The notes under the pieces were generated by a model. That model saw nothing but the letters and a program-made list of their open reading frames with translations. It had not been told where the DNA came from and did not search any database. From NCBI GenBank assembly GCA_902500755.1, contig CABVRV010000011.1, positions 8,659 through 51,063 of the forward strand: a stretch of 42,405 nucleotides of DNA. Direction: 5' to 3'. This document shows, piece by piece, positions 6,728-40,995 of this stretch. The stretch comes from an uncultured Nitrospira sp. (GTDB lineage Bacteria > Nitrospirota > Nitrospiria > Nitrospirales > Nitrospiraceae). How positions within the stretch are numbered: the stretch's first letter is position 1; each line of letters begins with the position of its first letter. The position numbers and the translations under genes were made by a program.

Positions 6728-6789
6728 CTTCGAGCGGCACTGTCATAAGCGATGACCAATCACTCATCATCTTCAGAAAGGAGCATACG

Positions 6790-7455
6790 ATGCGGACACG
6801 ATATTATGGATTTATCGGCACAGTCCTGTGCCTTTCGCTTGGCCTCGTGGGATGCCAGACGACGGCAGGATCATCTGGACAGGCCTTCTCCTACAAAAAC
6901 ATGCCGGTGGCGGACGGAAGCGCGGCCGCTGGAGAAGGGAACAAGGTCTTGTTCAAAGGCAGTCCACTAGCGTTGAGCGGCAATGGGGTGAAGGTTGGGG
7001 ATAGCCTACGGGACGTCAAGGTTACACAGAACGACTTGACGCTCGTCAATATCGTGGAAACGCAAGGCGCGGGAAAAGTACGCATCATCAATATTGTTCC
7101 CTCCCTTGATACGCCGGTCTGTGAGCAACAGACACATCTTCTCAGCGAGAAAAATAAAGGCCTTGATAAAATGGTCGAACTCATCACAGTCAGCGTCGAT
7201 ACCCCATTTGCGCAGAAGCGTTTTGCCCAGGAAGCTAAGATTGCCAATGTGACATTCTTGTCCGATTATCGCGGCGGCGACTTCGGAAAAACCCATGGCC
7301 TCTTTCTGGAAGGTCCGCACATTTTGACCAGAGCTGTGATGGTCGTTGATAAAATGAACACCATCCGCCATCTTCAAATTACACCTGAACTCACCCAACT
7401 GCCGGATATGGAAGAGGCTTTTCAGATCGCCCGCCGTTTGGTGACGGAGAGCTAA
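6790..7455 (+). CDS. tpx: Thiol peroxidase (Tpx family), lipoprotein, lacking the resolving cysteine
   Basis: Tpx-type peroxiredoxins reduce hydroperoxides. I chose the ATG at 6790 because AAAGGAG lies just upstream. The 221-residue precursor begins with a signal peptide ending LVGC (lipobox, Cys22), then a Ser/Gly/Ala-rich spacer and the Tpx fold. The peroxidatic motif is PSLDTPVC (Thr108, Cys111). In E. coli Tpx the resolving cysteine lies in RFCGAEG; here the matching segment reads PFAQKRFAQEA, so alanine replaces it. The only other cysteines are in the signal peptide and lipobox. It is thus a predicted one-cysteine, membrane-anchored Tpx that needs an external thiol. sthA follows 87 bases downstream. 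Confidence 0.88.
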   Translation: MRTRYYGFIGTVLCLSLGLVGCQTTAGSSGQAFSYKNMPVADGSAAAGEGNKVLFKGSPLALSGNGVKVGDSLRDVKVTQNDLTLVNIVETQGAGKVRIINIVPSLDTPVCEQQTHLLSEKNKGLDKMVELITVSVDTPFAQKRFAQEAKIANVTFLSDYRGGDFGKTHGLFLEGPHILTRAVMVVDKMNTIRHLQITPELTQLPDMEEAFQIARRLVTES

Positions 7456-22508: not shown

Positions 22509-23951
22509 CTACTCGATTTCGGTTGGATCGTCTGGTTTGGCCCGTCTTCTGGCGACTCCGGTCGCACGGGCTGCTGCAGCGACGGCTCGCGCAACACGAG
22601 GAACGACTTCTTTATCGAAGACACTGGGGATAATATAATCTTCGCTTAACGTGTTTTCGGGAATGACGTTGGCGATGGCTTGGGCTGCGGCCAACTTCAT
22701 GGTTTCGTTGATCTCGCTGCTTTGCACGTCGAGCGCGCCGCGAAATATTCCGGGAAATGCCAATGCATTGTTAATCTGGTTGGGATAATCGGACCGCCCC
22801 GTCGCAAAAATTGCGGCATGAGAGACCCCAAGCTCCGGCGGAACTTCCGGATCCGGATTGGCCAGCGCGAACACGACCGGATTGGGCGCCATGAGATCGA
22901 GATCATCGGCGGTGAGCACATTCCCCACCGAGAGGCCGATGAAGACATCGGCCCCTTTTAACGCCTCGCGCAACGTCCCTCTTGGGCGATCTCGGGTCAA
23001 ACAGGCACGAAGATCGGTTCGGCAGGCGCGGAGTTGCTCGGCTTCTCCGTAGAGAATGATGCCCTCTTTGTCACAGCCCAGCAGATGAGTCGCCCCGGCA
23101 GCCAGCAAGATGCGGCAACAGGCCGTGCCTGCGGCACCCAGACCATTGACGAGGATGCGAACTTGGTCCAGTTGCTTTCCTGTGACCTTGAGGGCATTGG
23201 TCAACGCAGCGAGCAGGACCACGGCCGTGCCGTGCTGATCATCATGCATGACGGGAATATCAAGTGCTTGTTTTATTTTCTGCTCGATCTCGAAGCAGCG
23301 CGGCGCGCTGATGTCTTCCAAGTTGATTCCGCCGAACCCTGGTGCGATCCCTTGAACGATCCGCACGATCTCATCCGGATCCTGGCTATTCACACAGATG
23401 GGCCAGGCATCGATCCCGGCGAGTTCTTTGAAGAGCATCACCTTGCCCTCCAAGACCGGAAGCGCCGCTTCCGGTCCAAGGTTCCCCAACCCCAACACCG
23501 CAGATCCATCAGACACAACGGCAACGCTGTTGCTCTTGCTCGTAAAGGTATAGACCTTGGACTTGTCTTGGGCGATCGCTCGCGACACACGACCGACGCC
23601 CGGGGTATAGACCATCGACAGGACGTTTCTGGTGCTGATTGGAAACTTGCTGCCGACTCGTATCTTTCCTCCGAGATGAAGGAGAAAAATGCGATCAGAC
23701 GCGGAAAGCACGGTGACATCGGGTAACTCGCCGAGACGAGCCACGACCTTTTCCCCATGTTCCTCGCTCTGCACGTCGAAGGTGATATCGCGAACCATGC
23801 GGGTTTTTGTTGCGGAGACAAGATCGACGGCCCCGAGATTCGCCTGCTCCTCCGCAAGGAGTGCCGCTACCTTGGCAAAGATGCCAGGCGTGTTCGACAG
23901 TTCCAGACGGACCGTCAACCGATAGTTCGAATAGGGGCCGATCTCGCTCAT
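22509..23951 (-). CDS. NAD(P)-dependent malic enzyme with N-terminal ACT domain
   Basis: Oxidative decarboxylation of malate to pyruvate. The 480-residue protein starts with an ACT domain (about residues 8-85, YRLTVRLELSNTPGIFAKVA), a small-molecule sensor, followed by a bacterial malic enzyme: the catalytic Tyr in SMVYTPGVG, Lys in VLEGKVMLFKEL, metal Asp in MHDDQHGTAVV, and a Rossmann fold (LVNGLGAAGTACC). Cofactor preference cannot be read with confidence. The ACT domain suggests allosteric control by an amino acid (inference). It may lead an operon with the J-domain gene and rnd, about 100 bases downstream. Confidence 0.92.
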   Translation of the reverse strand: MSEIGPYSNYRLTVRLELSNTPGIFAKVAALLAEEQANLGAVDLVSATKTRMVRDITFDVQSEEHGEKVVARLGELPDVTVLSASDRIFLLHLGGKIRVGSKFPISTRNVLSMVYTPGVGRVSRAIAQDKSKVYTFTSKSNSVAVVSDGSAVLGLGNLGPEAALPVLEGKVMLFKELAGIDAWPICVNSQDPDEIVRIVQGIAPGFGGINLEDISAPRCFEIEQKIKQALDIPVMHDDQHGTAVVLLAALTNALKVTGKQLDQVRILVNGLGAAGTACCRILLAAGATHLLGCDKEGIILYGEAEQLRACRTDLRACLTRDRPRGTLREALKGADVFIGLSVGNVLTADDLDLMAPNPVVFALANPDPEVPPELGVSHAAIFATGRSDYPNQINNALAFPGIFRGALDVQSSEINETMKLAAAQAIANVIPENTLSEDYIIPSVFDKEVVPRVARAVAAAARATGVARRRAKPDDPTEIE

Positions 23952-24084: not shown

Positions 24085-27000
24085 ATGTCATCATCTTCTG
24101 AAAAACAAAATCCTAATCGGCTCATCCACGAAACGAGTCCGTATCTACTCCAACATGCCTACAACCCGGTGGACTGGTACCCCTGGGGGCCGGAAGCGCT
24201 GCAGTTGGCCAAAGACAAGAATCGCCCCATCTTGCTCTCCATCGGCTACTCCGCCTGCCACTGGTGCCATGTCATGGAACGGGAATCCTTTGAGAACGAG
24301 ACGATCGCCGAGCTCATGAACCGCTGGTTTATCTGCATTAAAGTCGATCGTGAGGAACGCCCCGATCTGGACGAAATCTACATGGCCGCGACGGTCACCA
24401 TGAATCATGGACAGGGAGGCTGGCCAATGACGGTGTTTTTGACACCGGATCAAGAGCCTTTTTTCGCCGGGACCTATTTCCCACCGGAAGATCGATGGGG
24501 ACGTCCAGGCTTCGGCTCGGTTCTCAAGAAGATCGCCGACTATTGGGAAACCCGCCCATCGGAAATTCACACCCAAGCCAAGGAACTCACCCGTCAACTA
24601 CAAGGAACGCGCCAGATCCCCTCCCCCATTTCGATCAGTGAATCGCTGCTCCACGAAGCCGTCGGCCAATTTCAGGAAGAGTTCGACGAGGCCCATGGCG
24701 GATTTGGAACGGCCCCGAAGTTTCCTCCGGCCATGGGATTGTCGTTCTTGCTCCGAAGTCACCGACGCTCAGGCGATCCCAGGACGCTCGCGATGGTCAC
24801 CAAGACCCTCGATATGATGGCGGCCGGAGGAATTTATGACCACATCGGCGGTGGATTTGCGCGCTATTCGACCGACGCACGATGGCTGGTTCCTCACTTC
24901 GAAAAAATGCTCTATGACAATGCGCTCCTCGCTCGCATCTATGTCGAGGCCTATCAAGTTACCAAGAAGCCGCTCTATCGACAGGTTGCCACCGAAATAC
25001 TCGACTATATCAGACGGGAAATGACCGGACCGGAGGGTGGAATTTATTCCTCCACCGACGCCGATTCCGAAGGGATCGAAGGAAAGTTCTTCGTCTGGAC
25101 ACCTGATGAAGTCGGGAATGTTCTCAAGAACGATGAAGATGCCCGACGTTTCTGTGCCTTGTACGACATCACGGCATCGGGCAATTGGGAACATACAAGC
25201 ATCCCCAATCGCTTACGACCCATCGAAGAGGTAGCGAGGCAACTCAACCTCACACCGGACGAGTTGATGGAGACCGCCTCCCGTGTACGACCTCTCCTCT
25301 ATGAAGCCCGACGTCAGCGCATCCCTCCGGGGCTGGATGACAAAGTGATCACCTCATGGAACGGCATGATGCTGTCGGCCATGGCTGAGGCGGCTCGAGT
25401 CTTCGGAGAAGCCCGCTATCTTGACAATGCCAGACGAACCGCCGACTTCTTGCTGCGAAGTCATGCCAAGCCCGATGGCCGGTTACTTCGCACTTCACGA
25501 GCCGCACGCGCACATCTCGATGCCTATCTGGAAGACTACGCCTACCTGGCCGAAGGACTGATCGACCTCTATGAAGCCGGCGGCGGCGAATCGTACCTCC
25601 AGGCCGCAGCACGACTCGCGGAGTTCTTGATCACGGACTTTATGGATCAGGAGCAAGGCGGCTTCTTCACCACGGCGAAGCACCATGAATCACTCATTCT
25701 TCGACACCGGGAGGGTACCGACGGAGCGATTCCCAGCGCGAACGCCGTCGCCGCCTCAGCCCTTGCCAGGTTGTCGTTCCATTTTGATCGCGACGAATGG
25801 CGCTACACTGCAATTTCTGCCGTCCGTGCCTATGGGCGGCCCATGACTCGCTATCCCCGGGCCTTTGCCAAGAGTCTGACCGTACTGGACTTTCTCACGG
25901 AGGGACCGGTGGAACTGGCCATTGTAGCGAGCGAGTCGCTCGATGAACTCCGCGCCATTCGCGAAGCGGTGGCACAATGCTACCTTCCCAACCGCGTCGT
26001 GGCAACAGGATTGCCAGGACATCCCTCTTCTCTTCCCCTCCTGAAAGACCGATCAGCTATTTCCGGCAAAGCAACACTGTACGTGTGTCGGAATTATAGC
26101 TGTCGCCAGCCGATCACCGACCCTCGCGTAGTCGAAGACGCATTGGTGAAAGAGTTGGCGACCATGCCGGGCAGCCAAGACGACCCAAAATTATTGCAGG
26201 GTGCCACCCTTTCAGGGCATGCCACAAGCCGAGGCACTGCCGCCTATGCGTCCCGCATGATGGCGCGAGAGGGAGAATCCAGTCTCGTGCACGCCTTTAC
26301 GACACTGGGCACAACCGGTCTGACCACCACACGCATCGGGTTCGGCACCTACCGTGTCGATATGCACAACGCTGAATATCGCGAGGCTCTGAGAAAAGCC
26401 TTGCGGACATCGTGTAATCTGATCGACACCTCGACGAATTACATGGACGGCGACAGCGAACGGTTGGTGGGATCCGTGCTGGCTGAGCTTGCGGCATTAG
26501 GCGAGATCCGACGCGATGAACTCATCGTGGTCTCGAAAATCGGGTATGTGCAGGGAGAGAATCTAAAGCTTGCCGAGTCCAGAGAAAAAAGTGGCCGCCC
26601 CTACCCTGAGGTCGTCAAATACGGGGATGGGATCTGGCACTGCATCCACCCCGAGTTCTTGGCGGATCAGCTGATGTTGTCACTCGATCGGCTTGGTGTG
26701 GCCACACTGGATGTCTGCTTGCTGCACAATCCGGAATACTACTTCTCAGAGGCGACGCATCGTGGCGAAACAGACTTGGAGACACTTCGCGCAGACTTTT
26801 ATACCCGACTCGAACGAGCCTTTGTCTACCTTGAATCTCAAGTGTCGGAGGGGCGACTACAGTATTACGGTGTCTCCTCAAACACCGTCGCGTCTCCCAG
26901 TGACGATCCGGAAGCAACCTCCCTCGAGCGCATGATCCAGGCGGCAAAGACTGCAGCCCAACTAGTTGGGTCGGCCAACCATCATTTTCAGGTGCTTCAG

Positions 27001-27765
27001 TGCCCGATGAATCTCCTCGAATCCGGCCCTGCGCTGACCGCCAATACCGGCCTCTCTCATGCTCACACCGTCCTTGAACATGCTCAGCAGAACCGGATTG
27101 CGATGTTGGTGAATCGACCGTTAAATGCCATGCTCGGACAGAACAGAATGCTACGCCTTGCGGATCTGCCGCTCGAAGATAATCCCATCGATTTCAATAC
27201 ACATCTCGGGGGGCTGGGTGCGCTTGAACAGGAATACCGAAGCTCCATCGCGCCACATGTCCAAGGTACTGGGACTGAAGCAGCGCCCACGGACTTCTTC
27301 AATTGGTCGATCGAACTGCAACGGCTACGTCCCCAGATTCAGGGACTGGAACATTGGGAACAGATCGAACATCGCATGATCGCTCCCCGAATCAACCAAG
27401 TATTCCAGCTGCTTGACCGTCAACTTGCAGGAGATACGGCTGAACAGTGGGGAAACTGGCGTCAACGCTATGTTCCCGAGCTCCTGACCCTGCTGCGAGG
27501 CCTGCGGCATGAAGCGACCGTCCGAAGTCGAACCCGAACCGACCAAGTTACGCAAGCAATCGACCCGTTCCTGCCGGCATCGCGTCGAGCCTCCTCACTC
27601 TCTCAAAAGGCGCTATGGGTCCTTGCCAGCACGCCAGGGGTCACCTGCGTTTTGAACGGCATGCGCACGACTCGCTATGTTGAGGATACCCTCTCCGTGT
27701 TGAAGTGGGAACCGCTCAAAGAGGCCCGGCCTATCTATGAAGCCGCAGCAAAACTGCCTCGGTGA
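24085..27765 (+). CDS. YyaL-type thioredoxin/glycosidase-fold protein fused to an aldo/keto reductase
   Basis: A single 1226-residue frame with two unrelated enzymes. Residues 1-690 are a YyaL/SSP411 (DUF255) protein: [20 protein letters not shown], a thioredoxin-like domain with Cys58-x-x-Cys61 in [10 protein letters not shown], a six-hairpin helical domain ([20 protein letters not shown]) and the family's late segment [15 protein letters not shown]. After a linker of about 40 residues, an aldo/keto reductase begins near 733 ([11 protein letters not shown]) with its full tetrad: Asp and Tyr in [11 protein letters not shown], Lys in VVSKIGY, His in CLLHNPEYY. This part is about 490 residues, longer than the usual 300. 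An AGGGTGA site precedes the ATG. There is no signal peptide, so it should be cytoplasmic. The substrate is unknown. Confidence 0.9.
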
Positions 27766-27959: not shown

Positions 27960-27989
27960 TCATCCGTTCTTACCTTGCAGGATATTTCT

Positions 27990-29543
27990 GTGTCAAAACT
28001 TGCCGTTATCGATATCGGAACAAATTCCATCCATATGGTACTGGCAGAAATTCTGCCGGATGCCAGCTTCAAGATTCTTGATCGGTTCAAGGACATGACC
28101 CGGTTGGGTAACGGCGCGTTTGCGAGCAAACGACTCGCCGATGAGGTCATGGCTCGAGCCCTTGAAGTCCTGAAGACGTTAGTGACGCTGGCCCGCAACA
28201 AAGGTTTTGATCGTGTGATCGCCGTTGCCACCAGCGCGGTGCGCGAAGCCGAAAACGGCGGTGATTTTGTCTCCATGATCATGGAAGAAACCGGCCTGAG
28301 AGTGCGCGTGATCAGCGGGACGGAAGAAGCTCGGCTGATCTTCCTAGGGGTCAAAAACAGCATTGCACTCACGGATGAGCCCACATTGGTCGTGGACATC
28401 GGCGGCGGTTCGGTGGAATTGATCGTAGGCCATCGCGAAGGGATGATTCATGGAACAAGCCTCAAGCTCGGCGCGATCCGATTAGCTGAACAATACCTTC
28501 CTAAGACTCCGCCGTCAGAGCACATGATGCAGGCGCTTAAACAGGCCGTGCTCTCTCCCTTGCGCGAGGCAGTCGCATCGTTCAAGACGAGGAAGTTTCG
28601 CTCACTCGTCGCCACCTCCGGGATGGCTGCCAACATCGCTGAAGTGATCCATTTGCGCCACACGGGACGACCGCTGCCACAGCATAATCTTGCGACGGTG
28701 TCGCTCAAAGATATCCGTGTCCTTGAAGCAGAGCTGGCTCAAGCCTCAGTGAAAGCTCGCTTGTCCATTCCTGGCCTGGATCCCAAACGTGTCGATACCC
28801 TTCTCCCGGCCACCGTTCTACTCCGCTGCCTCTTGGAGCTTTCCGGCCTCAATGAACTGACATTATGCGACAAGGCTATTCGCGAGGGTGTGATCTACGA
28901 CTTCATTGTACGGCATCGTGAGGGCCTGAAGGCTGAAAACGAGATTCCCGACATTCGTCGCCGCAACGTGATCGGCCTCGCGCGTCGCTGTCACGCGCCT
29001 GAATCGCATTCGCTGCATGTCGCTGAGCTCGCGCTGAGCCTGTTTGATCAAACGCAGCGGGTGCATCGCTTAGGGCCGCAAGAACGGACCTGGCTGGAGT
29101 ACGCCTCGATCTTGCACGATGTGGGATATCATATCAATCCGCGACAACATCACAAGCACGCCTATTACCTCATCACACACAGCGATGTAGCCGGGTTGGC
29201 CGCAGAAGAAATCGACGTGGTTGCCACCGTCGCCCGCTACCACCGGCGTGCGCTGCCGGCCCTCAAACACGAAGAATTTGACCGGCTCACACCTCGGATT
29301 CAACGGGTGGTTAAGATTCTTGCATCCTTGTTACGGATCGCCGACGGACTCGATCGCACTCATTTCTCCCTTGTCCGGGCCGTGCACGTCAAATTCGGAA
29401 AACAGATCATGATCGAGGTACATCTCGCGGGTGATGCGGAGATGGAGTTGTGGGCGGCGAAGAGTCGGGCTGATCTGTTCGAACAGGTATTCCACCGACG
29501 GATCCAGTTCTCAAAAGTGTTGTTGGAAACCCGCAAATCATGA
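27990..29543 (+). CDS. Ppx/GppA family exopolyphosphatase / pppGpp phosphatase
   Basis: Hydrolyses polyphosphate or the guanosine pentaphosphate alarmone. The protein has the actin-like phosphate motifs (AVIDIGTNSIHMVL, and VVDIGGGSVELIVG), the Glu-bearing VISGTEEARLIFLG, and a C-terminal HD-type helical domain (ILHDVGYHINPRQHHKHAY). I start it at the GTG at 27990 because AGGA lies 7 bases upstream; a TTG at 27975 would add five residues and overlap that site. Its stop overlaps the next gene's ATG (ATGA), so they are translationally coupled. Sequence does not separate Ppx from GppA activity. Confidence 0.88.
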   Translation: MSKLAVIDIGTNSIHMVLAEILPDASFKILDRFKDMTRLGNGAFASKRLADEVMARALEVLKTLVTLARNKGFDRVIAVATSAVREAENGGDFVSMIMEETGLRVRVISGTEEARLIFLGVKNSIALTDEPTLVVDIGGGSVELIVGHREGMIHGTSLKLGAIRLAEQYLPKTPPSEHMMQALKQAVLSPLREAVASFKTRKFRSLVATSGMAANIAEVIHLRHTGRPLPQHNLATVSLKDIRVLEAELAQASVKARLSIPGLDPKRVDTLLPATVLLRCLLELSGLNELTLCDKAIREGVIYDFIVRHREGLKAENEIPDIRRRNVIGLARRCHAPESHSLHVAELALSLFDQTQRVHRLGPQERTWLEYASILHDVGYHINPRQHHKHAYYLITHSDVAGLAAEEIDVVATVARYHRRALPALKHEEFDRLTPRIQRVVKILASLLRIADGLDRTHFSLVRAVHVKFGKQIMIEVHLAGDAEMELWAAKSRADLFEQVFHRRIQFSKVLLETRKS

Positions 29544-30289
29544 GTGAGCCCCACTCCACCACGACGGCGCCTCACCCTTATCCAGGCAAGCTGATCATCG
29601 TCGAAGGCATCGATGGATCAGGAAAGAGCACTCAACTACAACTCTTGCACAAGTGGCTCGAGTCAAAAGGCTATAAGGTCTTCTTTACTGAGTGGAATTC
29701 CTCGGAATTGGTGAAGGAGACCACGAAGCGAGGGAAGAAATCAAAGAGCCTTACCCCGACCACATTCAGCTTGCTGCACGCCACGGACTTTGCCAGCCGA
29801 CTCTATCATCACATTCTCCCTCCTCTGAAGGCCGGGATGATTGTCTTGGCTGATCGTTATATGTACACGGCGTTCGCACGCGATGTCGTCCGCGGCGTGT
29901 CGGCTGAGTGGGTCCGCAAACTCTATGCCTTTGCCATCACACCCGATATGGCGTTCTATTTCAAAGTTCCGATTGAGGTCGCCATCTCCCGACTCCTGCG
30001 AGGGACGCGCGGTCAATTCAAGTACTATGAAGCCGGTATGGATATGAATCTAAGCCCTGACCTGACCCAGAGTTTTCAGATCTTTCAATCGCGAATTCTC
30101 ACGGAATACGACAAGATCGTGGACGAATTCGGTCTCTTGACGATGGATGCGACCCAAGACATCGAGACGCAACAGGAGCTCATGCGGACGCTGGTGTCCG
30201 ACACTCTGCGCGGCTACAAACCAAAACGAGGCATCTATGGTCGACGCACGCTTTTTTGGCGACGGTTTGACGTACATACATCCGAGTGA
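29540..30289 (+). CDS. Thymidylate-kinase-like P-loop kinase, copy 1
   Basis: A 249-residue kinase of the thymidylate kinase fold: intact P-loop EGIDGSGKST (Lys29), the DRY motif in VLADRYMYTAFARD, and a helical LID region without the classic Tmk arginine pattern. It differs enough from housekeeping Tmk that dTMP should not be assumed. PPK2 polyphosphate kinases share this general fold, which matters next to a Ppx/GppA gene (inference). It overlaps the upstream gene by 4 bases and the next gene by 53 bases. Copy 2 is clearly its paralogue (both have LADRYxYTAFARD). Confidence 0.82.
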   Translation: MSEPHSTTTAPHPYPGKLIIVEGIDGSGKSTQLQLLHKWLESKGYKVFFTEWNSSELVKETTKRGKKSKSLTPTTFSLLHATDFASRLYHHILPPLKAGMIVLADRYMYTAFARDVVRGVSAEWVRKLYAFAITPDMAFYFKVPIEVAISRLLRGTRGQFKYYEAGMDMNLSPDLTQSFQIFQSRILTEYDKIVDEFGLLTMDATQDIETQQELMRTLVSDTLRGYKPKRGIYGRRTLFWRRFDVHTSE

Positions 30290-30959
30290 GCTCAAAGGAA
30301 AACTGATCGCCATTGAAGGGACCGACGGAGTCGGCCGCTCGACTCACATCGAGCTGTTGCAAGAATGGTTGGAGGTGCAAGGGTATGGGGTGATCACGAC
30401 CGGATGGACTCGATCCAATCTGATGTCTAAAACTATCGAAATGGCAAAAGCCGGCAATATCGTCGACCGATGGTCTCTCAGCCTGCTCTATGCAACGGAT
30501 TTTGCCGACCGCCTGGAACACCAGGTCATTCCTGCTCTCCGATCGGGGTTTGTCGTCTTGGCAGATCGGTACATCTACACGGCGTTCGCGCGAGATTTCG
30601 TGCGCAGCGCCGATCGCGCATGGATTCGTGATGTATTCGGGTTTGCGCCGATTCCAGACCTTGTCTGCTACTTACGGATTGATGTCGAGACCCTTGCGCT
30701 TCGTGTCATCGAAACCACTGGCATGAATTATTGGGAATCCGGCATGGACCTTCGGTTGGGATCCGATCTGTATGACAGTTTTAAGAAATACCAATCCCTC
30801 TTAATAGAGGAATTCGACAAAATGGCCATTGAATTTCGCTTCAATGTTGTCGACGCGAGAAAATCGCCCGAAGAGATCCAGGATGAGCTCAAAGGCTATA
30901 TCCTCCCCGTCTTGCAGAACCACAAGCCCGGTATCAGCGCTGGAGGGGGCGGGGCCTAG
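30237..30959 (+). CDS. Thymidylate-kinase-like protein, copy 2, with P-loop Lys replaced by Arg
   Basis: A 240-residue paralogue of copy 1. The ATG at 30237 is preceded by GAGG and lies inside the end of copy 1 (53-base overlap, other frame). The P-loop reads EGTDGVGRST: Arg34 (codon CGC) sits where the catalytic Lys is expected, a change that strongly weakens most P-loop kinases. The DRY segment VLADRYIYTAFARD and the fold pattern are kept, so it is not simply decaying. Since Tmk enzymes are dimers, an active/inactive heterodimer with copy 1 is possible. It ends tail-to-tail with sixA, the two stops sharing CTAG. It has a Gly-rich C-terminal tail. Confidence 0.8.
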   Translation: MVDARFFGDGLTYIHPSELKGKLIAIEGTDGVGRSTHIELLQEWLEVQGYGVITTGWTRSNLMSKTIEMAKAGNIVDRWSLSLLYATDFADRLEHQVIPALRSGFVVLADRYIYTAFARDFVRSADRAWIRDVFGFAPIPDLVCYLRIDVETLALRVIETTGMNYWESGMDLRLGSDLYDSFKKYQSLLIEEFDKMAIEFRFNVVDARKSPEEIQDELKGYILPVLQNHKPGISAGGGGA

Positions 30960-31489
30960 GATTGTTCGCGTTGTCGTCTTATCCCTGCCCGCTTGCCCAG
31001 CACCCGCAGCTGCATTGGTGGTAACCACCAGCGCAACCTGCACTGCCCCGCCCTGCCCTTCCCTTCCACTTCTAGACAAGCGGCCCCGGCTTTCTTGATC
31101 GGGAAATTCAGAAGCACTTTCCCGCACAGAAAGAGGCTCACCACTTCGCCGAGAAAGGGCTCATGGCCCACGCAGAGCACCACAGCGTCCGAAGGCAGCG
31201 TCCGGAGAATATTCACAAGCTGTTCAGGCTTTGCTCCAACCGCTAACTCTTCACGTGTCTCCACCTTCAAACCAGGACAAACCACCGTGCGAAGCAGCCT
31301 GGCAGTATCATAGGCCCGTACGAATGGGCTCGTGAATAGATGGGTCGGCTTACAGCCCAGCGCGGCAAGCCCCGCAGCGGCTTGTCGCACCCGCTTCTTT
31401 CCCCGCTCTGTAAGAGGGCGATTTTCATCCGTTCCTTCCCATTCGTCTCGCTCGACGGCAATGCCGTGGCGAATCAGAATACATTCCAT
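30956..31489 (-). CDS. sixA: Phosphohistidine phosphatase SixA
   Basis: Histidine-phosphatase-superfamily enzyme that removes phosphate from phosphohistidine in signalling proteins. The 177-residue protein starts MECILIRHGIAVE (RHG with catalytic His8), has PLTERGKKRVRQAA, FTSPFVRAYDTA with the second Arg, and the second His in VLCVGHEPFLG. Size fits SixA rather than a phosphoglycerate mutase. A GGAGGG site lies upstream of the ATG. The C-terminus is extended and basic (about 25 residues). It is convergent with the kinase operon, overlapping by 4 bases. Its substrate here is unknown. Confidence 0.85.
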   Translation of the reverse strand: MECILIRHGIAVERDEWEGTDENRPLTERGKKRVRQAAAGLAALGCKPTHLFTSPFVRAYDTARLLRTVVCPGLKVETREELAVGAKPEQLVNILRTLPSDAVVLCVGHEPFLGEVVSLFLCGKVLLNFPIKKAGAACLEVEGKGRAGQCRLRWWLPPMQLRVLGKRAGIRRQREQS

Positions 31490-32706: not shown

Positions 32707-34113
32707 CTACTTCTGGCTACCAATTAGGAACCGCTGAAAATTATCAACCACGCCGCTGAACCACGAATGCTTTCCTGCCGTGGATTGTTTGGTTTTGCGC
32801 GGCTGCCTTGGAGCCCCCTTCAACTCCTCCAATCGAGCCGTGACATCTCTGAAGGATGGGGCCGAATGATCGATGCGGTGATAGATTTCCACTGCTTGAC
32901 TCGTTTTCCCGATAGACTCGAGGCTGCGCCCCAAGAAATAGAGGACATCCGTCATATCTCGGGGAAGTGCCGCCGTATCGTCCAATGCCGTATGAAATGC
33001 CTGTATCGCAGCATGCGGCTCCCGCATTTTTACATGGCAGAATCCGACTTGTGCGTAGGCTTTGAGCCACAGCGCCTTATCCTTGGCTGCTGAATGGAAC
33101 ATGTCGATTGCCTCTTTTAGCCGCCCATCATCTTTAAGCATCATCCCCCGCTCATAGTCTTCTTCCGGGGAGCTGACCGGACTGGTCTCAGGAAATTCAT
33201 CGGCAGCTATGGTCGGGGCAGGAGCCGGAACGGAATCCTTGAGTTCGGTCGGATCTTCCGGCGCAGCCGCCAGGTCTCCCAACTCTTCCTTCCCGGCCAG
33301 GGGGAGAATCCCTCCGTTGAGCCGATCAAGCGCTGCTTGAGCCACCAACTTCGAGGTAACGATGGGCGCTTGCTCCGCGTATCCATAGGTCAACGTGATA
33401 TCGGACACCTGATTGATCAATCGTGGGTTCCCTCGGCTCAATCGATGTATCAATGCGCAAGCCTTGTCGGTGAAGAGCCTCCGGTGCCTGCCCGCAACTT
33501 GTATTCGATGACGAATAAAGTTGGCGGTATCCGCTTCTGACAGCGGTTTCAGATGATAGTCGACGACGATCCGTTGCGCGAATTGAGTCATGTCGACTCG
33601 TTGGAGCAAGGTATACAGATCCGGTTGACCAGAGAGGATGATCTGCAGCTTTAACGTTTTGCCGTCGTTCATGTTGGACAATAACCGCAATTCTTCGAGG
33701 AGTTCGGCCCCCAGACTTTGGGCTTCATCCACGATGAGAATGACGCGTCGAAAGCGCTTCGCCTCTTGCGTCAGAAACTCCGAAAACATGTGGTAGGCTT
33801 CGATCGGATCAAGACGCTTGGTGCTCAGCCCAAGAGCCAATAGGATCCACGGCAAGAGCTGCTCGATATCATAACGCGCATTTGTCACAAGCCCAATCTT
33901 ATGCTTGCTGCCGTGCTCAGCGATAAGTTTCTGGAGCAGGGAGGTTTTCCCCATCCCAGGATCTCCGGTAAGCACCATGAAAGGAGCCTGACTCACAATG
34001 CCGTACTCCAAGAGGCTGTACGCGGCCTGATGCTCGGACCCCGAATACAGAAAACTGCTGTCCGGCAAGAGCGCAAACGGCTTGGCCTTCAGGTGATAAA
34101 AGGATTCGTACAT
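32707..34113 (-). CDS. ExeA-like AAA ATPase of XrtA/PEP-CTERM type with C-terminal TPR extension
   Basis: ATPase typical of exosortase-linked exopolysaccharide loci. Residues 1-270 have the start MYESFYHLKAKPFALLPD, Walker A GDPGMGKTS, Walker B VILIVDEAQSL, sensor segment LQIILSGQPDL and the ExeA-type LSRGNPRLINQVSD. A Pro/Glu-rich linker (about 280-340) leads to a C-terminal TPR module (340-445) not found in the usual family length of about 270-370 residues. The total is 468. There is no membrane segment. The adjacent 144-residue gene repeats the TPR module. Its exact job in assembly is not established; regulation of export or of the kinase is possible. Confidence 0.85.
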   Translation of the reverse strand: MYESFYHLKAKPFALLPDSSFLYSGSEHQAAYSLLEYGIVSQAPFMVLTGDPGMGKTSLLQKLIAEHGSKHKIGLVTNARYDIEQLLPWILLALGLSTKRLDPIEAYHMFSEFLTQEAKRFRRVILIVDEAQSLGAELLEELRLLSNMNDGKTLKLQIILSGQPDLYTLLQRVDMTQFAQRIVVDYHLKPLSEADTANFIRHRIQVAGRHRRLFTDKACALIHRLSRGNPRLINQVSDITLTYGYAEQAPIVTSKLVAQAALDRLNGGILPLAGKEELGDLAAAPEDPTELKDSVPAPAPTIAADEFPETSPVSSPEEDYERGMMLKDDGRLKEAIDMFHSAAKDKALWLKAYAQVGFCHVKMREPHAAIQAFHTALDDTAALPRDMTDVLYFLGRSLESIGKTSQAVEIYHRIDHSAPSFRDVTARLEELKGAPRQPRKTKQSTAGKHSWFSGVVDNFQRFLIGSQK

Positions 34114-34147
34114 GGGTGTGTCTTTCGCCCCTCGATAGATTCCCCGA

Positions 34148-34975
34148 TCAAGACAGCATGGCTTTCATGTCGGCGAGGCCCAATGATGATCGGCCGGCTT
34201 TATTCAATACTGTTCCTAAGACAGGACGCGAGTCTCGCACCAACCCCAAAGCCCGCTGGAGTTCCTCGCCGGTGGTTTTGCCTTCTTCGACGACCATGAG
34301 GAGCGCATCCGTGTATGGAGCGAAGGCCAAGACATCAGCCGTATGAAGCAAAGGAGGAAGATCGAAGATGACGAAGCGCGAGGGGTATCGATGCTTCAGC
34401 TCCTCAACAAGGGCGACCATTTTCGGCGACGTCAGAATTTCGGTGGAATTTGAAATCGCTCTCCCCCCGGGCAGCAAGACAAATCGCCCGATGCCTGGAT
34501 GGAGGAGGAGGTCTTCAACAGGTTGATCGTCCAACAAATAGTCCGCGAGGCCCAGACAGTCCTGCACGCCGAACACCTTGTGCACACTGGGGTCTTGAAG
34601 GTCCGAGTCGACGAGGAGCACGGTCTGCGTCGTCTCCATCGCAAGACTCACGGCTAAATTGATCGCGGTTAACGTCTTCCCTTCGCCGTATCCCGGACTT
34701 GTGACTCCCACGACGTTCCAGCCGTTTTCTCGCAGTCGATGTGTCACTTGCGTTCGTAGGATCTTGTACGCATCGACGAACGGCCCTTTGTTGTGAGCGG
34801 CCATGACGCGATGTCCCTGCAGAACAGAACGTGGAACGGTCAGTGACCTGGTTCGCGTATAGGTGATGGGGGGCGGTACGGCCTGCTCCCCGGCAGACCG
34901 CTTTGGCGTCGCCTCCGCGGCAGATGTGCTTTTCAATTCTCGATAGAGATCAAGCGCTGTTCGAATCCGATCCAT
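34148..34975 (-). CDS. CpsD/CapB-like tyrosine-kinase-family ATPase of the exopolysaccharide locus
   Basis: Cytoplasmic partner of the chain-length regulator. The 275-residue protein (ATG at 34975, 14 bases after the upstream stop) begins MDRIRTALDLYRELKST. It has the YKILRTQVTHRL segment, a Walker A variant SPGYGEGKTLTAINLA, Walker A' VLLVDSDLQDPSVH and Walker B FVIFDLPPLL. Bacterial tyrosine kinases usually end in a Tyr cluster; here the end is RSSLGLADMKAMLS with no tyrosine, so autophosphorylation there is not expected. It fits the exosortase-locus kinase-like family. The order with the Wzz-like gene is conserved in such operons (established knowledge). Confidence 0.85.
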   Translation of the reverse strand: MDRIRTALDLYRELKSTSAAEATPKRSAGEQAVPPPITYTRTRSLTVPRSVLQGHRVMAAHNKGPFVDAYKILRTQVTHRLRENGWNVVGVTSPGYGEGKTLTAINLAVSLAMETTQTVLLVDSDLQDPSVHKVFGVQDCLGLADYLLDDQPVEDLLLHPGIGRFVLLPGGRAISNSTEILTSPKMVALVEELKHRYPSRFVIFDLPPLLHTADVLAFAPYTDALLMVVEEGKTTGEELQRALGLVRDSRPVLGTVLNKAGRSSLGLADMKAMLS

Positions 34976-34989
34976 GATGTTCCCGTTCC

Positions 34990-36762
34990 TTATTCCATAC
35001 CGACCCGTCTCAAGGCGGCAAACCACAACACGTCCAGAGGAATGACGTACACATGCAAGAGGGCCAGGGCAGTCCCGAGGACTCCCACCCCTGCCGTTTG
35101 AGCGAGGCGTCGCTTGATTCTCACCCGTGACACATCTTCCTCATTCGGCATAAAAGGAATCACCGCCAGCGGAAAATGTTGAGTCAACGTGAGAAGCTGC
35201 TCTGGAGACCGGATCGAATGATCCAGCGATTCCGCCACCGCTCCGGAGCCGATTCCGCCACCGACGGCTAGAATGACACCAAGCAGAACGATAGCCATGC
35301 GGTTAGGCTTGAAGGGTTTTTCGGGGAGACTCGGCGGATCGATCAAAGAAAACCGCTCACCTTTTCGCTGCACCTCCAAACCTTCCGCTACTTTCGCTTC
35401 CAGCAACCTGGAACGGATCTCTTGATACTTTTGTGCCGTGGTGTCACGGTCACGTATGAGCACCAAGTATTCCGGCTCGATCCCCGGAGATCGTTCCAGA
35501 CGGGTCGCGTATTCTCCCAAACGCCGCTTCACCTCGATACGCGTCTTACGAAGTGCGTCCAATGAGGACAGAGCAGAATTCAATTGCGCCTGAAGATTAA
35601 TATAGGCTGGGTTTTCCGGTCGTTGATTCACGGCCCTGTTCGGCCTCGCGTTGAGCCTCAACACTTCCTGCTCGAGAGCTGTAACTTTTCGCTGCGCCTG
35701 AAAGATGTCAGGGTGCGCGCTTCCAAGTCGTTCTAAATCCGCCGACAGCGCGACACGGGCATCGATAAGCCGCTTCGATGCCTCTTCCGCGTCAGGGAGT
35801 TGGCCGGTCTCCTTCTCCAAGGCATCGATCTCCTGTTTCATCTTGAGGATATCCGGATGATCGGCTGAAAGATTAGCCGCAGCTGCCGCATATTCGGCGC
35901 GAAGAGCCCGTAACCGCTCGATGGAATCCAAAATCCGCTCTCCCGTAACGGATAAGATCGGCGTATTCGGTTTAATCGTGGCTAATTCTCCCTCAAGATA
36001 GGTCCTTCGTTCGTCCAGACCACGAATCTGCTGATCGATATCCATCAACTCACGTTCCGCTTGGTTCATCAGCTGTTGATTCAGCGGTGTCAACTCCGGA
36101 AGCGCTCCATTGGCCCGCCTCTTGAACTTCGCGACCTTTTCGTCGATGTCGTTGATATGCCGCTCCAGGTTTTCCGCCTCTTGCTGAAGAAACGTTGTGG
36201 CCTCCTGCGCTTGTCGCTCGCGGCTCTTGAGATTTTCCCCTAGAAACAGGCTCGTCAGCTCATTCGCCACCTTTTGCGCCAATTCTGGAGACCGGTTTTG
36301 ATACGCAACCGTAAAGGCGATAGTCGCCTTGGTGGCATGCTGCGTGCGCTTGTCCACAACATCCGCGCTGATGACTTCGACTTCAATATCCTTGATGAAT
36401 TGTTTGACGATCTCTTCGGCGGGACTGTTCTTCCGTTGATCGTGATAGAGACCGAATTGGTCGACCACTTTCCAGAGCGTGGTGCGGCTCATGACCTGTT
36501 GTTTGATTGTCTCAATCCTCTGATCGGCATAGCTTGTGATGGTCGACCGAACGAGATCAGATGGGATTTCCTGTTCCTCGATCAATATCGTGGCCGTTGA
36601 TTTAAAGGTCGGTGGCCAGAGGAACGCCAGAGTTAACGAGACCGCGAGAAGCCCTGCGCTCGTGAAGACGATGAGCGTGCGACGTCGTCGAAACGCGACG
36701 ACGTACTCAGCAAAACTTTTGCTCTGTTCGGATGCCCGTATCGAAGTCTGTGTCTGTGCCAT
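34990..36762 (-). CDS. Wzz/PCP-type polysaccharide chain-length determinant
   Basis: Inner-membrane co-polymerase that controls polymer length. The 590-residue protein has an N-terminal TM (core LIVFTSAGLLAVSLTLAFLW), a long periplasmic region with coiled coils (RQAQEATTFLQQEAENLERH and later segments), the PCP proline-rich stretch SLPEKPFKPNRM just before a second TM (IVLLGVILAVGGGIGSGAV), and a third hydrophobic segment at the end (VGVLGTALALLHVYVIPLDV). It lacks a fused kinase domain; the kinase-like partner is the next gene. The start is 4 bases after the upstream stop. Family length and order match XrtA-type loci. Confidence 0.9.
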   Translation of the reverse strand: MAQTQTSIRASEQSKSFAEYVVAFRRRRTLIVFTSAGLLAVSLTLAFLWPPTFKSTATILIEEQEIPSDLVRSTITSYADQRIETIKQQVMSRTTLWKVVDQFGLYHDQRKNSPAEEIVKQFIKDIEVEVISADVVDKRTQHATKATIAFTVAYQNRSPELAQKVANELTSLFLGENLKSRERQAQEATTFLQQEAENLERHINDIDEKVAKFKRRANGALPELTPLNQQLMNQAERELMDIDQQIRGLDERRTYLEGELATIKPNTPILSVTGERILDSIERLRALRAEYAAAAANLSADHPDILKMKQEIDALEKETGQLPDAEEASKRLIDARVALSADLERLGSAHPDIFQAQRKVTALEQEVLRLNARPNRAVNQRPENPAYINLQAQLNSALSSLDALRKTRIEVKRRLGEYATRLERSPGIEPEYLVLIRDRDTTAQKYQEIRSRLLEAKVAEGLEVQRKGERFSLIDPPSLPEKPFKPNRMAIVLLGVILAVGGGIGSGAVAESLDHSIRSPEQLLTLTQHFPLAVIPFMPNEEDVSRVRIKRRLAQTAGVGVLGTALALLHVYVIPLDVLWFAALRRVGME

Positions 36763-36766
36763 AGTT

Positions 36767-38005
36767 TTAGTGGAAGAACGTCCGTTTAGGTGGATAATAG
36801 GTCACCATGAATGTCGTGGCATGGGAGCTCGCCGAATCAGCTTGCGTATCAATGTCGCGCCATCGGTACATGTATGACACCTCGGCTTGACACCACTCGA
36901 GAAACTTCCAGGACAGTTTCGGCGCGACGCTGACATAGCTGCTGTCGGGAAAAACTCCGCCGATCGCCACTCGTGTCTTTCCTGACGTCAGCACTCCCAC
37001 CACATTGACTGAGAAGGCGAGAGTTTCTGAAAGGTCGTATGATCCTGACGCTTCCGCTCGATTGGTCTGGATGAGCAATCCAAACCCACTGGGAACCAAA
37101 TCCCGGGCGAACGCTACCTGGAACGCGGCGCGCTCAAAATTCTTTCTCAGACTCGCCCCTGCCAACCATACCGTATCGTGAGTTGTAAGGTTTCCGCCTA
37201 ACAGCTGCGAGCTGGACCGCAGGAATCGTGGGCCACCGTGGACCGTCCCCGTTAATGATTCACTAAAGGCATGCGTCAGGCTGAGATCGACCCCCGGAAA
37301 GCTGGCTCGAAATGGCGATGGAGAGTCAGTCGTATGAAAATCGGTGTAGCTTCCGGTTATGCGCACTTGGTCTCGCTCAGTCATGTGATACAGAAATCCA
37401 CCCGAACCGCCCAGCAGTCGGTAGTCGACCAACCGTCCGCTTTCATATGTCGTATCTGAAAACTGCATGCCTGATTGAAACGACAACTTTTCAGTGAGGC
37501 TTCTTGTCCATGTCGGGTTAAACGTCCACTGGTTGCGCTGCGCAAACTGCAGGACGACCCCGGTCGCTTGCAACTCACTGATCAGCGTATTGTCTCGACT
37601 GAGACCGCCGGTGAAACCTATGAGATCCTTCTCAGTCCTATACCGGATCGATACAGGCACAAATGCGTTTGTAAAGTGCCGCTCTTCTCCACCGAAGTAC
37701 CCGACAAAATCCGCCGCGACCCGGCTGCTCACATCCAGACGTTCGGTGTTGCCGGATACCTCCATCGCCGGTGTGACCCAGTATCCATAGGTGTCATCAT
37801 GAGGGAAGGGAGTCAGCAGCAAGTTACTGTTATAGACACCCTTGGTCCCCAAGGATGGCGCCAGCGACCACTCAGCTGCCTTGATACCAGGCACCCCTTC
37901 CGACGCGAGGAGCACCAAGACGAACACAACCTTGGCGATACGCGCCCTGCTCCAGACTCGACTCCACCACGTACAACTCGGTTGCATTCGGACGGCAATC
38001 GTCAC
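36767..38005 (-). CDS. Outer-membrane beta-barrel protein of the exopolysaccharide locus
   Basis: A 412-residue protein. A basic N-terminus and hydrophobic segment (VVFVLVLLASEGVPGIKAAE) form a signal peptide. The rest shows alternating aromatic/polar strands (YRTEKDLIGFTGGLSRDNT, SVAPKLSWKFLEWCQAEVSY) and ends near an aromatic pair, as in outer-membrane porins; XrtA loci commonly encode such a barrel. The start codon is GTG at 38005, overlapping the export gene's stop (GTGA); an ATG at 37987 is possible. It may form or assist the polymer exit channel (inference). Confidence 0.78.
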   Translation of the reverse strand: MTIAVRMQPSCTWWSRVWSRARIAKVVFVLVLLASEGVPGIKAAEWSLAPSLGTKGVYNSNLLLTPFPHDDTYGYWVTPAMEVSGNTERLDVSSRVAADFVGYFGGEERHFTNAFVPVSIRYRTEKDLIGFTGGLSRDNTLISELQATGVVLQFAQRNQWTFNPTWTRSLTEKLSFQSGMQFSDTTYESGRLVDYRLLGGSGGFLYHMTERDQVRITGSYTDFHTTDSPSPFRASFPGVDLSLTHAFSESLTGTVHGGPRFLRSSSQLLGGNLTTHDTVWLAGASLRKNFERAAFQVAFARDLVPSGFGLLIQTNRAEASGSYDLSETLAFSVNVVGVLTSGKTRVAIGGVFPDSSYVSVAPKLSWKFLEWCQAEVSYMYRWRDIDTQADSASSHATTFMVTYYPPKRTFFH

Positions 38006-38610: not shown

Positions 38611-40995
38611 TTATCCTCTGAGCTGTGCTAAAGCCTGTTCAGCCTCTCGTCGTCCATCAAAAGCATCTGTTCCCTTGAGCGCCTTCGAAAGAAACGTCCG
38701 CGCCTCGGCACGTTTTCCTGACTGCAAAAACGCTATGCCAAGATGGTAATTCAGAACGGCGATTTCCGGGGATTTGGCCACTGCGTACTTCATCAAACGA
38801 ATCGCCTCTTCCTGCTGTCCCATTTTAAATCGCACCCAGCCGAGCGTATCGATGAAGAGAGGATGCGGAGCGTCTTTTTCAAAATCTCGGCTGAGGGCAA
38901 AGGCTTTTTGCAGGCTCGATGGATCACCCTTCCGATCCACCAGCAACACGGCGAGGTTATTCGCAGCCAGCACATTGCGCGGATTGAGACGCAACACCGT
39001 GTCATAGGCAGCCATGGCCGAATCGATGTGCCCCTGCTCCGAGCGAGCCGAGGCCAGCAGCATGTACAATTCTTCACTGTCCGGATTGGCTTTGAGCCCG
39101 TCTTCTACGATCTGCGCGGCCATTTCCGGTTTCTTCTCGGACAGTAATAACGTCGTCCAATTCAACCACGGTGTCATCCACTTGGGGTTCAACCTCACCG
39201 CTTCGCGATATTCATGAAAAGCCGTTTCACGCTCGCCCGTCAGTGACAACACCTCGCCGAGTAATCCATGCGCGAATGGATGGTCGGAGCGAGCGGCAAG
39301 GAGAGCGCCCAACCTCGTTTTCGCGCGAGCCGTCTGACCGTCGGCAACTTCCAGCCTCAGAAGAGACAGTAAGGGTTCCGGCTCGTTTGGAGCCAGCGTT
39401 GTCGCGCGCTCATACGCGTGTCTCGCCTCAGTCAAGCGACGCTGCGCTTCAAAAAAACGTCCTTCGGCCACTACCGCAACATAGTTCTCAGCCGACAGCC
39501 GACGAAACCGTGCCAACGTTAGCTCAGCCCCTTGCCAGTTCTTCGTTGCCAAATCGAGTGTCATCAACATGTCAAGCGCGGCGACGTCATCGGGACGCTG
39601 TTTCAGGAGATCGTCGAGTCGCGCGCGCGCTTGCTGATGGCGACCACTCCTGCTCTCCAACACCGCGAGCGATCGTTTCGCTTCGACTTGGTCGGGATAC
39701 AGCGCAACCGCTCGCTCAAAACTTTCCTTCGCAAGATTGGTCTCTCCGGTGAGCTGATAGGCTTGCCCGAGTAAGTACTGTACCGTCGCCAATTCCGGTT
39801 GATCGTGCAGAACCGTACGAAATGCCTGAACTGCGTCCTTCCCATTCCGCCTTGCCAACGCCATACGGCCTAAGAGGATCAGTCCATCGGAAGATCGAGG
39901 GTTCTCATTCAACACCTCTTGCACCTGTCGCTCCGCGTCGCCGTGCCGTCCTGCGAGAAGATCCATCTCTGCCAGCTTCACTTTGGCTTCCAACCCAACC
40001 GGTTTGGTTTTGAACTCCTGTACCAACGCGACATACCGATCTCTGGCTTTGTCGCCTTGCCCGCTTTTCCGGTACAGCGCGGCAAGTCCGAATTGGATTT
40101 GGCTTGAGTACGGCAATTGAGCGGCGGCATCGAGAAGCACCCGTTCCGCTGCAGGCATATCCTTCCGACTCACAAAAAAGTCGGCCAACGCAAGATGACG
40201 CTGTTCGCTGTCCGGCTCAAATGCAACCGCCTCGCGCAAGACCGCTTCGGCCTTATCGTAAGCATGACGACTCATATAAAATCTGACCAACCGTATTCGA
40301 TGGTCCATGGATTGAGGTTCAGCCTCGATCATCCGACGAATGATGCCTTCCGCGCCGGACCAATCCTTCGCTTTCGTCAGAACGGTATTCAAATTATTGA
40401 GAAGATCCAAATCTCTTGGATGATCGGCTAGGGAGCGTGTCAATGTGCGTTCCGCTTCACGGTGCCGTTCTTGCTGGCTATACAACGTCGCTAGGAGGAT
40501 GGCGACGTCCGGCTCTGTCGGAAACTCGCTTGCCAGTGCCTCTGCCTTGGGAATCACCGTCGGGACGGCCTCTCTGGTTACGGCCTGCGCGGCAATCTTC
40601 AGGGCGTGAGCCTGAGGATGGCGGGGCTCCTTCTTCAGCACCGTATCCGCCGCCTCGATCACCTGTTCCGTCAACCGAGCCTCAAGGTAGTACTTACCGA
40701 GCGTAATCAAGGCAGCCGTGTGATCAGGGACCAACCGGACAGCTTCTTGGTAGAGCTGAACCGCATTGCGCCAGTTCTTTTCCTTTTCTTCAACCTGAGC
40801 GAACAGATAGTAGGCCTCTCCCTCTTTCGGGTCGATTTTCAGGACGTTCCGGAGCGCCACCCTCGCTTTTGGATAATTCGCCGCGTCCATGTACTCGTGC
40901 GCCCGCGCAAAGTACTTGGCCTTCTTTTCCTCAGGGCCGCCGCAAGCCGTCACTGTCATCACGGCCAGAAGCAGAATGCCGATTCCATTACTCAT
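38611..40995 (-). CDS. prsT: PEP-CTERM/XrtA system TPR-repeat lipoprotein PrsT
   Basis: A 794-residue lipoprotein made almost wholly of tetratricopeptide repeats, matching the length and layout of PrsT in exosortase-linked exopolysaccharide loci. The signal peptide ends in VTACGG (lipid-bearing Cys18). TPR units run from about residue 28 (ARAHEYMDAANYPKARVALR) to the end (LGIAFLQSGKRAEARTFLSK), roughly twenty repeats. It should lie in the periplasm on a membrane and scaffold export or polymerisation proteins (inference). The export gene starts 9 bases downstream; the glycosylphosphotransferase gene ends 73 bases upstream. Confidence 0.9.
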   Translation of the reverse strand: MSNGIGILLLAVMTVTACGGPEEKKAKYFARAHEYMDAANYPKARVALRNVLKIDPKEGEAYYLFAQVEEKEKNWRNAVQLYQEAVRLVPDHTAALITLGKYYLEARLTEQVIEAADTVLKKEPRHPQAHALKIAAQAVTREAVPTVIPKAEALASEFPTEPDVAILLATLYSQQERHREAERTLTRSLADHPRDLDLLNNLNTVLTKAKDWSGAEGIIRRMIEAEPQSMDHRIRLVRFYMSRHAYDKAEAVLREAVAFEPDSEQRHLALADFFVSRKDMPAAERVLLDAAAQLPYSSQIQFGLAALYRKSGQGDKARDRYVALVQEFKTKPVGLEAKVKLAEMDLLAGRHGDAERQVQEVLNENPRSSDGLILLGRMALARRNGKDAVQAFRTVLHDQPELATVQYLLGQAYQLTGETNLAKESFERAVALYPDQVEAKRSLAVLESRSGRHQQARARLDDLLKQRPDDVAALDMLMTLDLATKNWQGAELTLARFRRLSAENYVAVVAEGRFFEAQRRLTEARHAYERATTLAPNEPEPLLSLLRLEVADGQTARAKTRLGALLAARSDHPFAHGLLGEVLSLTGERETAFHEYREAVRLNPKWMTPWLNWTTLLLSEKKPEMAAQIVEDGLKANPDSEELYMLLASARSEQGHIDSAMAAYDTVLRLNPRNVLAANNLAVLLVDRKGDPSSLQKAFALSRDFEKDAPHPLFIDTLGWVRFKMGQQEEAIRLMKYAVAKSPEIAVLNYHLGIAFLQSGKRAEARTFLSKALKGTDAFDGRREAEQALAQLRG

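Follow-up and report, generated by a model that had tools for sequence, protein, structure and literature searches.

A pair of Tmk-fold kinases, one intact and one altered at its catalytic site, is a probable two-subunit polyphosphate kinase in Nitrospira

Introduction

Why would a genome keep two overlapping genes for kinases of the thymidylate kinase (Tmk) fold, one of which has arginine in place of the catalytic lysine of its P-loop? The two genes, tmkA and tmkB, lie in a stretch of 42,405 nucleotides from an uncultured Nitrospira sp. (assembly GCA_902500755.1, contig CABVRV010000011.1, positions 8,659 to 51,063 of the forward strand), which as a whole is called the window below. They stand between a gene for a Ppx/GppA phosphatase and a convergent gene for a SixA-like histidine phosphatase. 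From comparisons of these genes with their relatives in bacteria and archaea, we suggest that tmkA and tmkB (products A and B) probably encode a two-subunit Tmk-fold polyphosphate kinase, with a catalytic subunit A and a non-catalytic partner B, which does not act on thymidine monophosphate (dTMP). In many bacteria and archaea, genes now taken for thymidylate kinases would then probably serve polyphosphate, not DNA precursors.

Results

Three phylum samples, of 198, 151 and 121 genomes, were searched with TmkB as the query; each includes a centre genome already known as a carrier. Pairs were counted among the matches listed, and a very divergent A may be missed by this query, as in genome G476. 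The pair was found in 44 of the 198 Nitrospirota genomes, the window's own among them, with both copies in 44/44, and in 11 of the 151 genomes of Thermoproteota, the phylum of G198, with both copies in 11/11. Chloroflexota, the phylum of G204, has 24 carriers among 121 genomes, 21 with at least two listed matches and three with one. The partner copy was found next door in these three (G426 and G458, where B is fused to a Ppx domain, and G476, where A was too divergent to be listed), giving both copies in 24/24; P-loops were read in 10 loci and in the three single-match genomes of this sample, and the other copies were assigned to A or B by similarity. Both copies are thus present in 79/79 carrier genomes of the three samples, and the pairing, which the original prediction had seen in one genome, is kept across genomes. 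The best 80 of at least 497 confirmed relatives, a selection by similarity to A that favours its close relatives and on which the three phylum samples do not depend, include Acidobacteria, Chloroflexi, Planctomycetes, Verrucomicrobia, Melainabacteria, Thaumarchaeota and Methanoliparum, among others. Judged from these sequences, the kinase pair is an old and nearly always paired unit of many bacteria and archaea.

Some variation in arrangement was seen. In genome G108, the two copies lie apart on the same contig, A and ppx near 63 kb (L175) and B and sixA, on the opposite strand, near 25 kb (L176), and the B frame has odd sequence ahead of VGRST. The Nitrospirota family f18 (loci L031-L033 and L169-L173) has B ahead of A. 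In L139/L164 (G295, Sulfolobales-like), stop codons are listed inside both matches, yet there are near-full open frames, and the matches may overrun the gene ends.

A copy was called intact on two features alone, the Lys of its P-loop and the DR of DRY. On this definition, 135 of 144 loci have a single intact copy beside a single broken one, as do 104 of 110 when near-duplicates are removed, and no locus of either set has two intact copies. The six exceptions among the 110 are L029, a B copy whose partner (L175) lies apart from it on the same contig; L045, where the contig breaks off past A; L061 and L196, which together make up the pair of a single genome, with A alone on its contig and B on another; L077, a B match without the P-loop stretch; and L194, a lone A-like copy considered in the Discussion. 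The full set also has L051, in which A, on a contig of low coverage, is split between two frames.

The broken copies do not all have the same lesion. In the non-redundant set, 96 have Arg in the P-loop with DR kept, five have Lys with EQ, three have Lys with DG, and two have Arg with DG, so that the inactive partner would have lost its function by at least three different routes. The asymmetry is stronger than the original prediction knew, since the B lineages that keep the P-loop Lys lose the arginine of the DRY motif: copy B of family f18 has EQY, and the six Sulfolobales-like B copies (L160-L165) have DGY in 6/6, with Lys in four and Arg in two. The P-loop is degraded in the two genomes of the Chloroflexota sample that have B fused to a Ppx domain (GPEGAGRRE and GPDIGPRPR).

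The Arg was also followed in alignments of the best 80 relatives together with the Nitrospirota loci. The P-loop Lys column has Lys in 112/114 rows filed as A, the other two being a gap and a misfiled B copy with Arg; the Lys-keeping B copies of L031-L033 stood among the rows filed as A in this count. The same column has Arg in 103/103 rows filed as B. In Nitrospiraceae, every printed P-loop of copy B reads GxDGVGR[ST]T except that of L029, which has an odd start but shows Arg in two other alignments, and L030, from another family of the class, reads GADGSGRST. Thus, the Arg is not peculiar to the genome of the window, as it would have to be to undo the original prediction, but is kept across genomes. 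Broken copies also tend to have an N-terminal aromatic-aromatic-Gly motif (101/135 broken and 1/133 intact copies, near-duplicates included), a descriptive count, as this wider pattern was chosen after the misses of a strict F-aromatic-G pattern (49/135 broken). As a separate observation, two otherwise canonical-looking archaeal Tmk, L142 and L143, have Ile and Asn for the P-loop Lys (GAGITT and GAGNTT), which may be real or a sequencing error.

The median ratio of nonsynonymous to synonymous substitution rates (dN/dS) in 25 Nitrospiraceae is 0.067 for A and 0.066 for B, from the comparisons with a proportion of synonymous differences (pS) below 0.6 (70/300 for A and 48/300 for B), the synonymous sites of the others being near saturation. 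A and B are under similar purifying selection. With Arg shared by the Nitrospiraceae B copies at this place of the P-loop and with a low dN/dS, Arg34 is due neither to chance nor to decay, and the view of the original prediction that the second copy is selected holds. The distance matrices of A and B for 44 loci correlate with r = 0.849, with 0/2000 permutations as high; part of this correlation comes from shared species history. In a tree of 94 rows from which the lesion columns were left out, the B copies form one clade (support 98/86), while the support for the A group against canonical Tmk is weak (46/81), and we therefore claim a clade for B alone. The bootstrap of this tree had not settled. 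The separation of the pair from six canonical archaeal Tmk rows is fully supported, and the Sulfolobales-like copies sit inside the A and B groups. The tree calls for two changes to account for the loss of DR, and for two in the Lys/Arg state.

The acceptor site was compared in an alignment of 20 canonical rows (19 archaeal and one from the window's genome), 50 A rows and 50 B rows, with positions taken from the alignment and not from coordinates. Four columns, which we take from human and bacterial Tmk to be the Phe, Arg, Tyr and Gln of the thymine site, have these residues in 19, 20, 20 and 20 of the 20 canonical rows. In A, the same columns have His in 48, Phe in 49, Arg in 50 and Asp in 50 of 50 rows, and in B, Tyr in 50, Phe in 48, Arg in 50 and Asp in 16 of 50. 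The alignment also shows new invariant Arg/Lys residues. Arg-157 of A, in the LID region, is invariant (50/50) and is kept in 4/50 B rows; its role is unsure, since 19/20 canonical rows are gapped at this column.

The closest solved structure, both by sequence and by fold, is that of the Sulfolobus tokodaii 'dTMP kinase' ST1543 (PDB 2plr, 4nzy, 4rzx and 5h70), which scores 186.8 bits to A and 156.6 bits to B; the next Tmk scores 58.9 and 41.3 bits. ST1543 has an A-type P-loop and pocket, and in the Sulfolobales-like genomes examined a gene of this type is a member of a pair. The titles of the four entries name ADP, not dTMP, as ligand. The structure comparison shows that the pair shares its fold with nucleoside monophosphate (NMP) kinases, and PPK2 structures are absent among the 50 rows listed of the fold comparisons, which is uninformative either way.

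What genes accompany the pair? Genes within 7.5 kb of A were counted in 84 pair loci of at least 10 kb, or 59 after removal of loci more than 90% alike. Ppx is near A in 57/84, SixA in 39/84 and CHAD in 35/84 loci, and any of the three in 66/84; for the non-redundant loci, these counts are 38/59, 22/59, 29/59 and 43/59. By contrast, Ppx, SixA and CHAD are each found in 0/20 control regions of canonical tmk, although the three profiles were trained on pair loci and may favour these over the controls. For the 20 controls, of 10.5-15.7 kb each, the third and weaker Tmk match in each of 20 genomes with the pair was assumed, without a family scan, to be canonical. A first CHAD profile was too narrow (12 matches), and a rebuilt one was used; five of six candidates that were checked pass Pfam, and the Sulfolobales-like candidate, at 22.1 against the Pfam cut-off of 25.6, is called CHAD-like here. 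PPK1 is near 1/84 and PPK2 near 0/84 pair loci. These counts bear out the polyphosphate-linked neighbourhood of the original prediction, whereas we found nothing that points in particular to nucleotide signalling, the other part of its proposed module.

Individual loci show the association in a compact form. In one genome each, L191:7534-8940 (G426) and L192:6091-7482 (G458), both of the Chloroflexota sample, TmkB is fused to domain III of Ppx/GppA (PF21447), and L192 also has an HD domain (PF01966). At the level of gene architecture, such a fusion is a direct link of B to a polyphosphate enzyme domain. About 9 kb of L193:1332-9936 (G476) contain PPK1, CYTH-CHAD, Ppx, TmkB (GVDRSGRS), TmkA (GLDASGKS) and a histidine phosphatase. 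The gene order of the Sulfolobales-like loci is sixA-ppx-A-B, followed by the CHAD-like gene, and a figure legend in a paper on biomining archaea lists SixA, PPX, dTMP kinase and CHAD together as a conserved gene context (PMC10892726).

The genes of the cluster in the window are given in Table 1. Their positions, the two P-loops, the long overlap and the presence of LADRYxYTAFARD in both kinases are as the original prediction had them. Overlaps of 4 bases between ppx and tmkA and of 53 bases between tmkA and tmkB join the three genes head to tail, which suggests one operon with coupled translation. TmkA and TmkB are 39% identical, and both meet PF02223 (81.4 and 66.0 bits, cut-off 27). For the NCBIfam dTMP kinase TIGR00041, with a cut-off of 83.25 bits, TmkA is above at 91.8 bits and TmkB below at 72.3 bits. 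The Ppx/GppA protein matches PF02541 (204.2 bits) and PF21447 (93.9 bits), both above the cut-off; its best NCBIfam is the exopolyphosphatase TIGR03706, at 264.7 bits, below the cut-off of 307. The SixA-like protein is above the cut-off for PF00300 (His_Phos_1, 38.3 bits) and just below that for TIGR00249 SixA (68.8 bits, cut-off 74.5).

Table 1. Features of the kinase-pair cluster, in positions of the window.
Feature	Position	Strand	Description
ppx/gppA	27990-29543	+	GTG start, alternative longer TTG start at 27975 possible; Ppx/GppA phosphatase with C-terminal domain III (HD)
tmkA	29540-30289	+	Tmk-fold kinase with intact active site; P-loop GIDGSGKST; Lys29 codon 29624-29626; DRY 105-107
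tmkB	30237-30959	+	Tmk-fold partner; P-loop GTDGVGRST; Lys to Arg34, codon 30336-30338
tmkA/tmkB overlap	30237-30289	+	53 bases; encodes the tmkB N-terminus MVDARFFGDGLTYIHPS, with the B-specific aromatic-aromatic-Gly motif
SixA-like histidine phosphatase	30956-31489	-	convergent to tmkB; ends share 4 bases

The same genome has a separate canonical-looking tmk on contig C151, so that another dTMP kinase, on which the original prediction depended, is present; its neighbours read as holB and metG from their translations, without a family search. Upstream of the cluster, the window has a malic enzyme with an N-terminal ACT domain (22509-23951) and a 1226-residue protein with a DUF255 thioredoxin-like (DsbH) domain and an aldo/keto reductase domain (24085-27765). 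Downstream are likely exopolysaccharide genes (32707-38005), namely an AAA+TPR ATPase, a ParA/CbiA-type ATPase and a Wzz-domain protein, and then a large TPR protein (38611-40995). The PADLOC matches of TmkA are weak (PDC-M51B 28.9 bits, VakA 19.6) and were read as generic P-loop kinase similarity, so that they give no lead to a defence role.

Discussion

In the mechanism that we propose, A, which has both the P-loop Lys and the DRY motif intact, would be the catalytic subunit and would move the γ-phosphate of ATP onto polyphosphate. When energy is low, A would work in reverse, passing phosphate from polyphosphate back onto ADP. B would be an obligate, catalytically silent partner, presumably joined to A in a physical heteromer. 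A dead site should drift, yet the Arg and most of the P-loop are kept in B, and we infer from this that B probably still binds a phosphate group, of a nucleotide or of polyphosphate, through which it may stabilise or regulate A. B would thus be a structural and regulatory partner. Ppx would remove polyphosphate, and the SixA-like phosphatase would act in the same pathway. CHAD proteins, which are adjacent in many relatives and elsewhere in the window's genome, would bind the polyphosphate.

Several observations weigh against this proposal. The window's genome also has PPK1 (contig C28) and PPK2 (contig C20), so a third polyphosphate kinase is not needed there. PPK1 or PPK2 is present in 37/44 Nitrospirota pair genomes, and most of the 7/44 with neither are incomplete. 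Within 47 Nitrospiraceae, the associations of the pair with PPK1 (negative, p = 0.076), PPK2 (p = 0.39) and CHAD (p = 0.052) are not significant. No Ppx, SixA or CHAD is found within 7.5 kb in 18/84 pair loci (16/59 non-redundant). G477 has, besides a normal pair, a third, lone A-like copy (L194:5914-6672) with the unusual P-loop GICSSGKST. ST1543 was deposited and published as a dTMP kinase. Finally, a site that is merely dead would not be expected to conserve its Arg so well, so that B may have some role or residual activity.

Across the sample of 198 Nitrospirota genomes, the pair is positively associated with PPK2 (36/44) and CHAD (27/44), but these associations are confounded by descent. 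A PPK1 match is missing in 33/44 pair genomes, several of which are incomplete. The idea that the pair is complementary to PPK1 inside Nitrospiraceae was rejected, as the negative association there does not reach significance. Contig C28 (locus L177) of the window's genome has, away from the Tmk pair, the PPK1 match at 6431-6952 and a CHAD match at 160-825, one of two in this genome.

What else might the pair do? The best surviving alternative, which we nevertheless consider unlikely, is that A is a kinase for another acceptor, either an NMP or nucleoside diphosphate, with ATP or polyphosphate as the driving donor, or a nucleotide related to alarmones, and consumes or senses polyphosphate with B as a silent partner. 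The fold is shared with NMP kinases, Ppx/GppA enzymes act on guanosine pentaphosphate (pppGpp) too, and most of the Nitrospirota pair genomes already have PPK1 or PPK2. However, the nucleobase-site residues are gone, with new invariant Arg/Lys instead, and the same operon is found in Sulfolobales-like genomes, where the enzyme reported to make polyphosphate in S. acidocaldarius is not a PPK1 or PPK2 if neither family is present.

A second alternative is that both copies are active, with Arg replacing Lys, as separate homodimers with different substrates. The rest of the B P-loop is kept in the window, and DR is kept in 96/106 non-redundant broken copies. This is nonetheless hard to reconcile with the lineages that keep Lys and lose the DRY arginine, with the degraded P-loops of the Ppx-domain fusions, and with the occurrence of the copies together in every carrier genome of the phylum samples. 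The LID-region Arg of A, for which the role is unsure, is also missing from most B rows. We consider this reading improbable.

An ordinary duplicated dTMP kinase with an incidental neighbourhood is more improbable still. A passes the NCBIfam dTMP kinase cut-off, and ST1543 bears that name, but the genome has its own tmk on contig C151, the pair stands apart from canonical archaeal Tmk in the tree, the thymine-site residues are not kept, and polyphosphate neighbours are frequent at pair loci and absent from the control regions. That tmkB is a decaying pseudogene, as its changed catalytic residue might indicate, has a negligible chance given a B frame that is open in nearly all loci, a dN/dS of 0.066, a phylogeny mirroring that of A, and Arg in 50/50 aligned B rows.

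A two-subunit polyphosphate kinase thus remains our preferred reading, and it would help to explain polyphosphate metabolism without PPK1. It is possible, though on balance doubtful, that the pair represents a third class of polyphosphate kinase found in bacteria and archaea, in which a catalytic subunit and a pseudokinase, both descended from Tmk, form an obligate heteromer. The two subunits would go back to an old duplication common to both domains, and the silent Arg P-loop would grip the polyphosphate chain or sense ADP while A adds or removes phosphates. If so, such an enzyme would provide polyphosphate synthesis for lineages without PPK1 and would explain many 'dTMP kinase' annotations.

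Comparison with known enzymes

The pair is like canonical Tmk in its fold, its P-loop and its DR[YF] motif. It differs in the thymine-site residues, in a YxE[AS]GMD stretch, in the pairing of an intact with a broken copy, and in its polyphosphate neighbourhood. Neither TmkA nor TmkB has a match to the PPK1 domains of Pfam or to the PPK2 domain PF03976 at E values up to 1, and the PPK2 of the window's genome is a separate gene on another contig.

A family-3 polyphosphate kinase of Sulfolobus acidocaldarius has reportedly been described by Hofmann et al. (bioRxiv 2024; JBC 302:111283, 2026). The S. acidocaldarius genome, which was searched as a control, has neither a PPK1 nor a PPK2 match. According to the introduction of another paper (PMC11677633), the enzyme that makes S. 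acidocaldarius polyphosphate was reported in 2024; if both PPK1 and PPK2 are absent there, it must belong to a different family. By the likeness of the loci, the Sulfolobales A/B operon very likely encodes the published family-3 polyphosphate kinase. The description of the module as uncharacterised in the original prediction is then probably wrong in its full sense, as the archaeal enzyme probably already represents the kinase-pair family, and the present results would extend this probably archaeal enzyme family to bacteria. A literature search, with preprints and most subscription papers outside its coverage, found no paper on an active/inactive Tmk pair, and if the published family-3 enzyme is something else, the novelty of the pair rises.

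The Sulfolobales-like genomes and Nitrospira have the same two kinase groups, and the archaeal loci have the order sixA-ppx-A-B with a CHAD-like gene; the ppx of S. acidocaldarius is Saci_2018. The Nitrospira pair differs in being bacterial and in coexisting with PPK1 and PPK2. The partner subunits differ as well: the Nitrospira B has exchanged its P-loop Lys for Arg, whereas the Sulfolobales-like B keeps Lys in 4/6 copies and has lost the DRY arginine in 6/6.

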